A stretch of 40,301 bases of DNA from Candidatus Desulfatifera sulfidica (lineage in GTDB: Bacteria > Desulfobacterota > Desulfobulbia > Desulfobulbales > Desulfocapsaceae). Positions 27,444 through 38,946 of this stretch are shown in pieces. Location of the stretch: positions 1-40,301 of the forward strand of contig JACNLK010000088.1 in NCBI GenBank assembly GCA_014381505.1, written 5' to 3'. Every line of letters starts with the position of its first letter. Positions within the stretch are counted from its first letter, which is position 1. Made by a program: the position numbers and the translations under genes. The notes beneath the pieces were generated by a model that was not told the DNA's origin, did not search any database, and saw only the letters and a list, made by a program, of their open reading frames with translations.

Positions 27444-28546
27444 ATGACTGTTTATACCAAATCATCTTCGGCTGACCTGTTGCCGCCGGTCAGTTCGGTG
27501 GGCGTTATCGGTTGGGTGCGACAGAATCTTTTTTCTTCGGTCGGCAGTTCCCTGATGTCCCTGTGCGCTCTTTATCTCCTCTATATGACTGTGCCACCGG
27601 CCATTAACTGGGCCTTTATCGATGCCGACTGGTTTGGCATGGATCGGGATGCCTGTACCAGTGGTGGTGCCTGTTGGGTCTTTGTCACCGTGCGAATCAA
27701 TCAGTTCCTGTTTGGTTTTTACCCATCGTCTGAGTACTGGCGGGTGGTTCTGGCGTTTTCCATCGCCGGTATCCTTGTGGCCTGGCTGCTGGTGGACCGG
27801 GCTCCTTATAAGGGGTTTGTCGGTCTGATCACTTTAGTTGTTTATCCCATTGTGGCCTATTTTCTCTTCTATGGTGGTTTGGGACTGGAGGTCGTTGAGA
27901 CCCATAAATGGGGCGGCCTGATGCTGACCTTGATCCTGGCAACTATTGGTATGGTTTGCGCTTTGCCCTTAGGGATCATTCTGGCCCTGGGGCGGCGTTC
28001 TTCCATGCCTATTGCCAAGTCTTTTTCAGTGATTTTTATTGAGTTCTGGCGTGGAGTTCCGCTGATTACAGTTCTGTTCATGTCTTCGGTCATGTTGCCC
28101 ATTTTCATGCCCGAAGAGATGCAGATCGACAAACTGCTGCGGGCCCTGATCGGCATTATCTTTTTTCAGTCCGCCTATATGGCGGAGGTTGTCCGTGGTG
28201 GTCTTCAGGCCATTCCCAAAGCCAGTATGAGGCGGCTGAGGCCCTGGGACTTTCTTACTGGAAGTCGATGATTCTGATTATTCTTCCTCAGGCGCTGAAG
28301 CTGGTTATCCCGGGGATTGTCAATACCTTTATCGCTCTGTTCAAGGATACTACGCTGGTTTTGATTATTGGCCTGTTTGATCTGCTGGCTGTGGTTCAAT
28401 CCGCCTTCGCCGACCCTAAATGGCTTGGTTATTCGGTGGAGGGTTATGTTTTTGTTGCAGGCATCTACTGGGTGTCCTGTTTTGCCATGTCTCAATATTC
28501 ACAGCGTCTTGAGCAGAAGCTGAATACCGGACATGCACGGATGTAA
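27444..28546 (+). pseudogene. aapM: General L-amino acid ABC transporter permease AapM, frameshifted
   Basis: This is the second Aap permease, which should be about 367 residues. The first frame runs from 27444 (MTVYTKSSSADLLPPVSS) through intact helices to the coupling loop AEVVRGGLQAIPK, then turns into ASMRRLRPWDFLTGSR and stops at 28271. From about 28221 a different frame continues the family sequence without a break (QYEAAEALGLSYWKSMILIILPQALKLVIPG) to 28546. Adding one base near CCCAAAGCC at 28216-28223 restores the whole gene, so one G or C appears to be missing. The rest is well conserved, which suggests a recent mutation or a sequence error. A canonical -1 slippery heptamer is not in the right frame, so programmed frameshifting is unlikely. 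Confidence 0.88.
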
Positions 28547-36314: not shown

Positions 36315-36677
36315 TCAGGCGGCCAGGTTGGATTTGTGTTTGAGGGGGATGACCCGATTGATCTTCTTGGGCACCAGGCCGTTGGACATAAAAGCTGAGC
36401 ATTGTTTACGTTTTTCAAAAGGGCAGTCGGTGATATTCCAGCAGGGGGTGTATTTGAGCAGCTTCTTGATGGCGGCGATGGAAACCCCGTGGCTGTGGAT
36501 CATTTCGCGCAGGCAGCCTACCCATTTCAGGTCGTCCATGGTGAAGTAGCGCCATTGACCTTTTCGTGCCGGGGTGATCAGGCCCTCTTCCTCGTAGATA
36601 CGGAGGGTGCGGGGGTGGATGTCGAGCATCTCGGCGGCAATTCCGATGGTGAAGATGGCTTTGTCGTCTGTATACAT
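36315..36677 (-). CDS. MerR-family regulator with C-terminal cysteine (CW-type) motif
   Basis: This is a 120-residue DNA-binding protein. The N-terminal winged HTH is clear: FTIGIAAEMLDIHPRTLRIYEEEGLITPAR (9-38), close to the HspR-like branch of MerR. The short dimerisation helix ends in LLKYTPCWNITDCPFEKRKQCSAF, giving C79, C85 and C93 in a CW...C...C pattern that resembles two-CW-type metal or cluster sites seen in Desulfobacterota proteins. C55 is a fourth cysteine. A good AAGGAG site lies 8 bp upstream. It is the last gene of the nrfD unit, with a GC-rich hairpin at its leader. It may sense redox, metal or sulfide and regulate this operon; that is inference. Confidence 0.88.
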   Translation of the reverse strand: MYTDDKAIFTIGIAAEMLDIHPRTLRIYEEEGLITPARKGQWRYFTMDDLKWVGCLREMIHSHGVSIAAIKKLLKYTPCWNITDCPFEKRKQCSAFMSNGLVPKKINRVIPLKHKSNLAA

Positions 36678-36743: not shown

Positions 36744-37925
36744 TCAGTGGTGTCCGTTGGTCTCGAAGGCCTTGCCGAAGAAACGCTCGCCCAGGAGGAA
36801 GCCGAGTCCGAGGACTCCGATGCCGCCGAAGACCAGTGAAAATTCTGCGGCTGAAGGCATGTAGGAGAAGTATGTGGGCAGTTCGTCAAAGCCGCGGTAG
36901 ATGGGGACGATCTCGCCTGCGGCAACCATGTTGTAGCGGGAGAAGAACTGACCGACTAAGACCATCAGGGCAGCAGTGGACATGGCCTGGATGGAGTTGA
37001 GTCTGGTGACCATCAGCAGGGCAAAGGGGATGAGCAGTCCGATTGTGATTTCAAAGAGCCAGAAGTTGATGGCCAAAGGGCCGCTGATCAGTGCTTGGGC
37101 AGCGAGAATGGTCTCTTCTGAGCCGACCAGGGCGTTAATATACTTCCAGGCGGTGGCGATGGAGATCAGGAAGAGCATCAGGCCCATGACCTTACCGGCA
37201 GTTTGCATGGCTTCAAAGGTTGTTTTGTTCATCTCGCTGCGTCGGAGCAGTTGGGCATAGTGGGTGAAGATGATGATGGCTGCGGCACCGGAGAGAAAGG
37301 CGCATCCGAGAAAGAAGATGGGAAGCTGTGATCCGTACCAGAAGGGGCGGGCGTTGAGAGATGCAAAGACTGCTCCCAGATTACTGTTGGCAGAGGCTTC
37401 AGCGACGGCACCCATGACACCGAGGATCACTGCGGTGGAGTATTTTTTGGTCAGGATCAGGTAGAATTCAACGAGCATGAAGCCTACGGCCATCCCGTAC
37501 AGAGTCCCCATCCACCAGATATTCGAGGTCAGATTGGGGAAGAAGACGTTTCCTATGGGCATCCGCCAGGGGTTTTCAATTTCGAGGCCGATAACGGTGA
37601 AGGCGCCCATGATTGCGGCGATAGAGAGCCATACCATCCGGTTGCCCAGAGGGGCCAGTTTATTGCCGCCGAAAATGTGACTCATGGCGGCGAGCAGACA
37701 GAGGCCGGTTGATATAATGGCGAAGAAGGCGTACACACCAATGAGCATGCCCCAGGGCATCTCGCGTGTGTTGGCAAATGCATGGTGATGTCCAACTGTC
37801 TGGGCATAAATACCACCGGCGACGCCGATGAGAATAAAGCCGGCCATCAACAGCATGAGCTTGTTGAAGAGAGGTGTGGCAATCCGGAGCTCGGCATTTG
37901 CGGAGAGTGAGAGTTCGTTAGTCAT
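36744..37925 (-). CDS. NrfD/PsrC-family quinone-interacting membrane protein
   Basis: This is a 393-residue integral inner-membrane protein with about ten helices. The start MTNELSLSANAELRIATPLFNKLMLLMAG and the segment MPWGMLIGVYAFFAIISTGLCLLAAMSHIFGG are typical of NrfD/PsrC subunits, which exchange electrons with menaquinone in sulfur-, DMSO- and Hdr-type complexes. Further along are NSNLGAVFASLNARPFWYGSQLPIFF and a late GQFFSRYNMVAAGEIVP. GGAGG lies 5 bp before the ATG at 37925; an upstream TTG at 37937 is less likely. No iron-sulfur or molybdopterin subunit is adjacent, so it works with a partner encoded elsewhere or in a smaller complex with the 79-residue membrane protein encoded 39 bp upstream. 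Confidence 0.93.
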   Translation of the reverse strand: MTNELSLSANAELRIATPLFNKLMLLMAGFILIGVAGGIYAQTVGHHHAFANTREMPWGMLIGVYAFFAIISTGLCLLAAMSHIFGGNKLAPLGNRMVWLSIAAIMGAFTVIGLEIENPWRMPIGNVFFPNLTSNIWWMGTLYGMAVGFMLVEFYLILTKKYSTAVILGVMGAVAEASANSNLGAVFASLNARPFWYGSQLPIFFLGCAFLSGAAAIIIFTHYAQLLRRSEMNKTTFEAMQTAGKVMGLMLFLISIATAWKYINALVGSEETILAAQALISGPLAINFWLFEITIGLLIPFALLMVTRLNSIQAMSTAALMVLVGQFFSRYNMVAAGEIVPIYRGFDELPTYFSYMPSAAEFSLVFGGIGVLGLGFLLGERFFGKAFETNGHH

Positions 37926-37964: not shown

Positions 37965-38204
37965 TTATAGAGTATGATTACTTTTTGCTTTCTGGGTGGC
38001 AAGCTCGGGCTCGGGGGCCTCGCCTTGGCTTTGGCGCAAGCTGTAGATTGCGATGATGGCAATAGGGGCGGCGAAAGGTCCGAGGAAAACGAACAGGGTC
38101 AAGGCCAGGATGAACCAAAAACCCTCGCTGATCTGTTTTCCGTGCTGGCTGATAAATTCGCGAATGGTGAGTGTCTGGTTGGAAGCTGTGTTCTGGGTTG
38201 TCAT
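37965..38204 (-). CDS. Small membrane protein of the nrfD operon, 79 residues
   Basis: I do not recognise a family. The protein begins MTTQNTASNQTLTIREFISQHGKQISEG, has one long or two short membrane helices (FWFILALTLFVFLGPFAAPIAIIAIYSL, about 29-56) with a PFAAP break, and ends in a charged tail (GEAPEPELATQKAKSNHTL). The frame is open to 38327, but ATG 38204 has AAGGAG 7 bp upstream. It is the first gene behind the sigma-54 promoter and lies 39 bp before the NrfD-like gene, so it is probably a subunit or assembly partner of that protein. Confidence 0.85.
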   Translation of the reverse strand: MTTQNTASNQTLTIREFISQHGKQISEGFWFILALTLFVFLGPFAAPIAIIAIYSLRQSQGEAPEPELATQKAKSNHTL

Positions 38205-38264
38205 GATGATCTCCTTCTCTGGGCAGGCTGTTGGTGTGCTGCCGATTGTCTTTGCCTTTGTTAT

Positions 38265-38280
38265 AGCAAGGTCTGTGCCA
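38265..38280 (-). promoter_or_regulatory. Sigma-54 (-24/-12) promoter of the nrfD operon
   Basis: On the minus strand the sequence TGGCACAGACCTTGCT fits the RpoN consensus TGGCAC-N5-TTGCW, with the GG and GC elements at the required spacing. Transcription should start near 38254, about 50 bp before the first gene. Initiation at such a promoter needs an enhancer-binding activator. Confidence 0.85.
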
Positions 38281-38395
38281 TTTTGAAGAGATTGGGGTAT
38301 GCGATGGGAGTATTTTGCGCTAACCACTCGAAGTGGTGTTGTAAAATATATTGCAAGAAAGTGTGTTTAAGCTTTGTTGGTAGAAATTCATTACA

Positions 38396-38468
38396 ACAAA
38401 ACTCCCACCAATGACGCATTGTGCGTCATTGGTGGGAGTTTTGTGTGGCGCACAATGCGTCATTGGTG
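38396..38468. promoter_or_regulatory. Twin palindromic activator sites upstream of the sigma-54 promoter
   Basis: Site 1 (38412-38428) is TGACGCATTGTGCGTCA and lies at the centre of a longer perfect palindrome with 23-bp arms (38396-38418 and 38422-38444). Site 2 (38446-38462) is TGGCGCACAATGCGTCA, the same consensus TGNCGCA-N3-TGCGNCA. The direct repeat TGCGTCATTGGTG recurs at 38422 and 38456. Centres are 34 bp apart and about 165 and 200 bp upstream of the predicted start, as expected for an enhancer-binding protein. The rest of 38469-38946 is GT-rich and holds no gene I can support. Confidence 0.7.
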
Positions 38469-38946
38469 CTAATTGGCCGTATTGTCTTGATGTTGTACGG
38501 TTTTTTCTTTGTTGTTGGGCTTGAACTTGCGCTGTGTTTGCGTTACTGGTCGTGGGGTGAGGGTGATTTTGGCTGCGAAAAAAGAGACTGTATCCCTGTT
38601 TTGCTGGGGGTTGGAGCTGATGTGGGCGCATGTCGCGCCTTTTGTTTTTTTTATGGGCTGGCTGTTTGGTCTTGTGCCTGTGTTTTTGTGAAGAGTTCAA
38701 CCGTGTGGCTTTTTGTTAAGCGGCTGATTTTATAATATGATATTGCTTTGCTGTTGGCGGTCGTTTTTGTGATGGGCGTATTTTGCGCATTGCACCTGTG
38801 GTTGGGTTGTCAGTCGTTTTTGTAGAGGGGGTGTGGTTCGTGAATGGCGGTTGATGGTCTGGAGCGGAACGCGTGGGTGTGTGAGGGTGACAAAGAAGGG
38901 TGTTTGGGCGGAAACAGGCGTGTTTTGTGCCAAATTGTACGGCGTC

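Follow-up and report, generated by a model that had tools for sequence, protein, structure and literature searches.

What promoter and what activator govern the NrfD-family membrane protein encoded in the window, that is, the whole stretch of 40,301 nucleotides analysed here from Candidatus Desulfatifera sulfidica (contig JACNLK010000088.1)? The account that we favor, with a probability of roughly 80%, is that a sigma-54 promoter would drive a three-gene operon (a 79-aa TM protein, NrfD and a MerR-type regulator; Table 1) in response to EBP-A, an enhancer-binding protein (EBP) encoded on another contig (C8). It draws on sequence, geometry, conservation, co-occurrence and gene neighbourhood, and binding, transcription, start site, signal and small RNA (sRNA) expression enter it as predictions.

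The membrane protein passes the gathering cutoff of its Pfam family (83.8 bits vs. 25.8) and fails the NCBIfam DsrP equivalog (24.7 bits for a cutoff of 350), and no sequence relative of it was found in the PDB. No Pfam or NCBIfam family was matched by the small TM protein, which is of the GFWF...GPFAAP type, and the MerR/HspR-like gene probably completes the operon as its third gene. Elsewhere in the window, an amino-acid ABC permease gene (27444-28546) appears to be divided between two ORFs that overlap, 27444-28271 and 28268-28546, pointing to a frameshift near 28200.

Table 1. Features of the window and of the putative small RNA loci (window coordinates unless a locus is named).
Feature	Position	Strand	Remarks
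Sigma-54 -24/-12 element TGGCACAGACCTTGCT	38280->38265	minus	Predicted transcription start near 38254
UAS1 TGACGCATTGTGCGTCA	38412-38428		Predicted activator site (17-bp palindrome), 131 bp upstream of the sigma-54 element
UAS2 TGGCGCACAATGCGTCA	38446-38462		Second predicted activator site, 34 bp beyond UAS1
UAS3 GGGCGCATGTCGCGCCT	38624-38640		Weaker distal site (score 15.0), position conserved in relatives
Perfect inverted repeat, 23-bp arms	38396-38418/38422-38444		Surrounds UAS1
79-aa single-TM protein	37965-38204	minus	First operon gene, between promoter and nrfD
NrfD-family membrane protein	36744-37925	minus	PF03916
MerR/HspR-like regulator	36315-36677	minus	After nrfD
PAS-GAFTGA sigma-54 activator	1440-2849	plus	Candidate activator of the original prediction
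Putative sRNA copies	L001:1290-1380 (C60), L006:1290-1380 (C22)	minus	Strong terminator

Conservation lends strong support to the original prediction that twin enhancers and a sigma-54 promoter serve the NrfD operon, and RpoN itself is encoded in the genome (PF04552, 205 bits, C99:24010-24486). The proposed RpoN match is a perfect element (TGGCA-N6-TTGCW, with GG and GC 12 bp apart) that is conserved in orthologs, and the coordinates agree with the two sites having been placed ~165 and ~200 bp upstream of the start, 34 bp apart: their centres fall at about -166 and -200 relative to the predicted +1 (~38254). The sites precede the element by 131 and 165 bp, a conserved arrangement that falls within the usual range of about 100-200 bp for activator sites of sigma-54 promoters. 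UAS3, which was absent from the original prediction, lies 178 bp beyond UAS2. When the window was simulated 300 times with a Markov model, 0.17 sigma-54 elements were expected (1 observed) and 0.04 core sites (2 observed), and the single tandem site pair had no counterpart in any of the 300 simulated windows. A search of the whole 2.08-Mb genome with the 17-bp site, as had been suggested, returned three exact sites, two of them at the window promoter, as well as further regulon members; with one mismatch allowed, 11 places were found vs. 2 for the reversed pattern.

Among NrfD relatives taken from 58 genomes, many orthologous operons display the same elements in the same order, beginning upstream of the genes with TGGCA[CT]-N5-TTGCT. 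The palindromic sites have the consensus GGRCGCA-N3-TGCGYCC. The first is found 118–121 or 128–133 bp from this element in nearly all cases (98 bp in one), the second 31–34 bp beyond the first, and a third, where the usual pattern holds, another 138–194 bp up (mostly 171–180). The two distance classes of the first site differ by about one helical turn, as expected if the loop forms from a single helical face. Reversed control patterns gave zero matches in the 58 genomes and in 194 genomes. A 257-Gb genome scan for a sigma-54 element with a site identified 23 loci, 13 with an orthologous NrfD directly downstream and two (L101 and L104) with an NrfD paralog elsewhere in the locus; titles of these 15 NrfD loci named Desulfobulbaceae, Desulfurivibrionaceae, Desulfofustis, Desulfopila, Desulfoprunum or unnamed Proteobacteria. 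The remaining eight, from unrelated lineages and without NrfD, were read as chance matches. Overall, sequence, order and spacing are kept in more than 20 loci, and the orthologous operons that show them are spread across the taxonomic order.

Several further arrangements were observed in these relatives. The sister species carries the NrfD operon in two tandem copies, each copy having a separate sigma-54 element and separate sites (L066, on C150), and a full-score activator site upstream of a histidine kinase gene, with no strict sigma-54 element between the two (L126:181-197). A second operon, with MerR and an NrfD that is ~42% identical, occurs in the same clusters of some relatives (e.g., L063:10476, L100, L136:3489), also with activator sites and mostly without a recognisable strict sigma-54 element. 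In L068, L064, L054, L067, L140 and L031, an IHF-like motif of the WATCAANNNNTTR type precedes the sigma-54 element by 39–40 bp (with 0 mismatches in the first three); the window copy has 3 mismatches, and we do not claim an IHF site there.

Outside the window, pattern searches of this genome, which may miss degenerate members, found sites paired with a perfect sigma-54 element, oriented and spaced as in the window, on contigs C8, C60 and C22, so that the regulon as derived here comprises the window operon, a paralogous operon (C8) and two copies of a putative sRNA of ~75 nt (C60 and C22). The C8 operon encodes a small TM protein and an NrfD (76% identical) behind two sites 33 bp apart. Immediately upstream of it, as in most relatives, are genes for an FeS protein (DsrO/NrfC-like) and a hexaheme c7-type cytochrome, both of which are missing from the window operon. 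On C60 and C22, two copies of a ~600-bp region carry TGGCACTACAATTGCT, followed by ~75 nt that close with a strong hairpin and a T-run (-24.3 kcal/mol, z ~ -4); the next annotatable genes encode a PAS histidine kinase and a response-regulator EBP on C60, and ftsH on C22. This organization suggests a duplicated small RNA driven by sigma-54. In the sister species, where each copy sits at a contig end that leaves the promoter out of view, the terminator part of both copies precedes the same two genes (histidine kinase and ftsH), and in the hairpin stem both sides have changed, from C-G to T-A. The putative sRNA was found only in this genus, and at the C60 and C22 loci no Rfam family scored above gathering, with only unrelated miRNA models below threshold. 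One-mismatch sites on C21, C36, C67, C70, C72 and C94 were set aside for want of a good sigma-54 element at a suitable distance.

Which protein, then, would bind these sites? EBP-A is a sigma-54 activator with four PAS domains, a GAFTDA motif and an AAA sigma-54 domain (PF00158), encoded on C8 beside the paralogous operon and divergent from the FeS gene, an orientation also seen in the sister species. The copy in this genome is cut by the contig end within the AAA lid, before the HTH; the ortholog in G027 includes GAFTDA, PF00158 and HTH_8 (a Fis-type HTH), and the HTH end reads [GQ]ISKDTLRRK in the copies read. Across relatives, the EBP-A gene is found near the FeS-cytochrome-NrfD cluster (G013, G026, G027, G032, G038, G044), on the same stretch within ~10 kb of it (G011, G050, G051, G056, G107, G155) or elsewhere in the genome (G006, G012, G017). 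In the 30 genomes whose NrfD ortholog could be assessed, with classes compiled by hand, EBP-A was present in 16 of the 17 with sites vs. 3 of the 13 without (Fisher p = 9e-5, rising to 5e-4 when the fragmentary G003 is entered as a genome that has sites and no EBP-A; since the genomes are related and not phylogenetically independent, these values overstate independence). G036 and G003 have sites and no EBP-A was found in them, possibly through fragmentation: in the exception, G036, the contig that carries the histidine kinase-response regulator (HK-RR) pair begins within the HK gene, and EBP-A would be the next gene expected on that side. Conversely, in G038, G051 and G056 both EBP-A and the sigma-54 element are present with no strong sites at this operon, though G038 and G051 do have sites, near a second operon with NrfD or at another place in the locus. 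Because it is encoded beside the C8 operon, lies near the cluster in many relatives and co-occurs with the sites, EBP-A is the better candidate, and is probably the activator in place of the PAS protein at 1440-2849.

Two other activators have to be weighed against EBP-A. That the promoter and enhancers are real and answer instead to the response-regulator EBP of the C60 HK-RR pair is unlikely: its genes lie just downstream of an sRNA copy with a site, an activator site precedes the HK gene in the sister species, and the pair is divergent from EBP-A in G017, G020, G025, G026 and G027, but this EBP shows no association with sites (p = 1), being strongly present in site-less genomes (G005, G007, G021, G023, G033, G034) and not found in site-bearing G013 and G050. 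We consider it quite improbable that the activator is the PAS protein put forward in the original prediction, which shares the contig with the operon and has an intact GAFTGA motif and HTH. Its gene is 36 kb from the operon and its presence does not track the sites (Fisher p = 1), with no ortholog at threshold in six site-bearing genomes (G011, G017, G020, G025, G036, G050) and orthologs in four site-less ones (G005, G007, G023, G034).

The palindromes could also be read as something other than sigma-54 enhancers, either as sites of a repressor or another regulator or, for UAS1, mainly as a bidirectional terminator hairpin. UAS1 does lie inside a perfect palindrome with 23-bp arms, as originally described (38396-38444), and these 49 nt, in A-tract/T-tract form, would be very stable if folded (predicted -40.2 kcal/mol); moreover, a MerR gene is part of the operon. 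Yet only the 15-17-bp core is conserved, the longest palindrome arm in other genomes being 12 bp, so that the extended hairpin occurs in this genome alone, whereas the core sites stand at fixed distances from the sigma-54 element, in two phased classes, and accompany the EBP gene, which leaves this reading hardly credible. As for the long palindrome itself, it could be a bidirectional terminator or a product of template switching between the near-identical flanks of the sites. Chance resemblance to sigma-54 and enhancer motifs, finally, we regard as already refuted, since single sigma-54-like elements do arise by chance (as the simulations indicate) but not with a sequence and spacing conserved in this many loci against zero control matches.

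With EBP-A retained as the likely activator, a comparison of gene orders points to how this control may have arisen. Five genomes without EBP-A (G049, G005, G023, G055, G043) have the order FeS-cytochrome-NrfD with a short gap, and neither sites nor a small-TM gene was detected in the cluster. In EBP-A genomes, several hundred bp with the sites and the sigma-54 promoter, and usually also the small-TM gene, separate cytochrome and NrfD. From this contrast, NrfD seems to have acquired a switch of its own, and we infer this direction of change.

The following sequence of events can thus be proposed. EBP-A would bind the strong tandem palindromes UAS1 and UAS2, helped by the weaker distal UAS3, and a signal reaching its PAS domains would lead it to assemble into an active oligomer. 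DNA looping would then bring EBP-A to the sigma-54 holoenzyme at 38265-38280, and ATP-driven open-complex formation would start transcription near 38254, the outcome being a conditional supply of an NrfD-type quinone-interacting subunit with its small TM partner. In this genome EBP-A would also drive the C8 operon and the two short-RNA copies. By analogy with the Qrc and Dsr complexes, the module may carry out electron transfer between the menaquinone pool and cytochromes of the periplasm. It is tempting to generalize this to one dedicated PAS activator with a lineage-wide regulon, in which NrfD is separately switched behind the FeS-cytochrome genes and to which this genus adds a duplicated sigma-54-driven sRNA, a proposal that we rate somewhat below even odds; if true, one signal would govern both respiratory rewiring and post-transcriptional control.

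We conclude that this is a real and new regulon, well conserved in a group of sulfate reducers and their kin, with its activator reassigned from the protein first proposed; no published account of it was found in a literature search that reached few subscription papers. It provides a specific activator candidate, a motif and a small regulon for an NrfD-type respiratory module of Desulfobulbales, and the activator's signal, once known, would tell when these bacteria need the NrfD electron route.

Among known systems, the gene products resemble a QrcABCD/DsrMKJOP-like set, with a hexaheme cytochrome (QrcA-like, 25.2 bits), an FeS protein (DsrO-like, 169 bits) and an NrfD-family subunit, although all three miss the curated cutoffs (180, 200 and 350 for QrcA, DsrO and DsrP). 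Membership in QrcABCD proper fails in NCBIfam for QrcA (cutoff as above) and QrcC (111.7 bits for 400), and none of the cluster genes was noted as being of the QrcB type. Short RNAs behind a sigma-54 promoter are familiar from GlmY/GlmZ of enterobacteria. The putative sRNA, present here in two copies, is like these in being short, with a sigma-54 promoter and an intrinsic terminator, and differs from them in its restriction to this genus and in the absence of an Rfam match above gathering score; it is likewise comparable to the EBP-driven ncRNAs of Desulfovibrio vulgaris (PMC4641369).

In gene content, the closest likeness noted within Desulfobulbales is the TMH1-DsrOhPh-tetrahaem locus of cable bacteria, proposed to transfer electrons from quinone to periplasm (PMC13047784), which also brings together a single-TM protein, an FeS protein, an NrfD-family protein and a multiheme cytochrome. 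The cytochrome has six CxxCH motifs here and four there, and TMH1, called unique to cable bacteria (PMC13047784), is likened to our small TM protein by type (single TM); neither promoter nor regulator of that locus is covered in PMC13047784. For regulation, the counterpart is DVU3142-ohcBAC of D. vulgaris, in which a single-component EBP sits beside a multiheme cytochrome/FeS/membrane-protein operon with a sigma-54 promoter and EBP sites, in a species where EBP regulons mostly span one to four operons (Kazakov et al., 2015; PMC4641369). OhcC is described as a haem-b membrane protein and not an NrfD, and D. vulgaris belongs to the order Desulfovibrionales (PMC4641369); in layout, as distinct from binding motifs, the regulatory logic of the regulon described here equals that of DVU3142-ohc.
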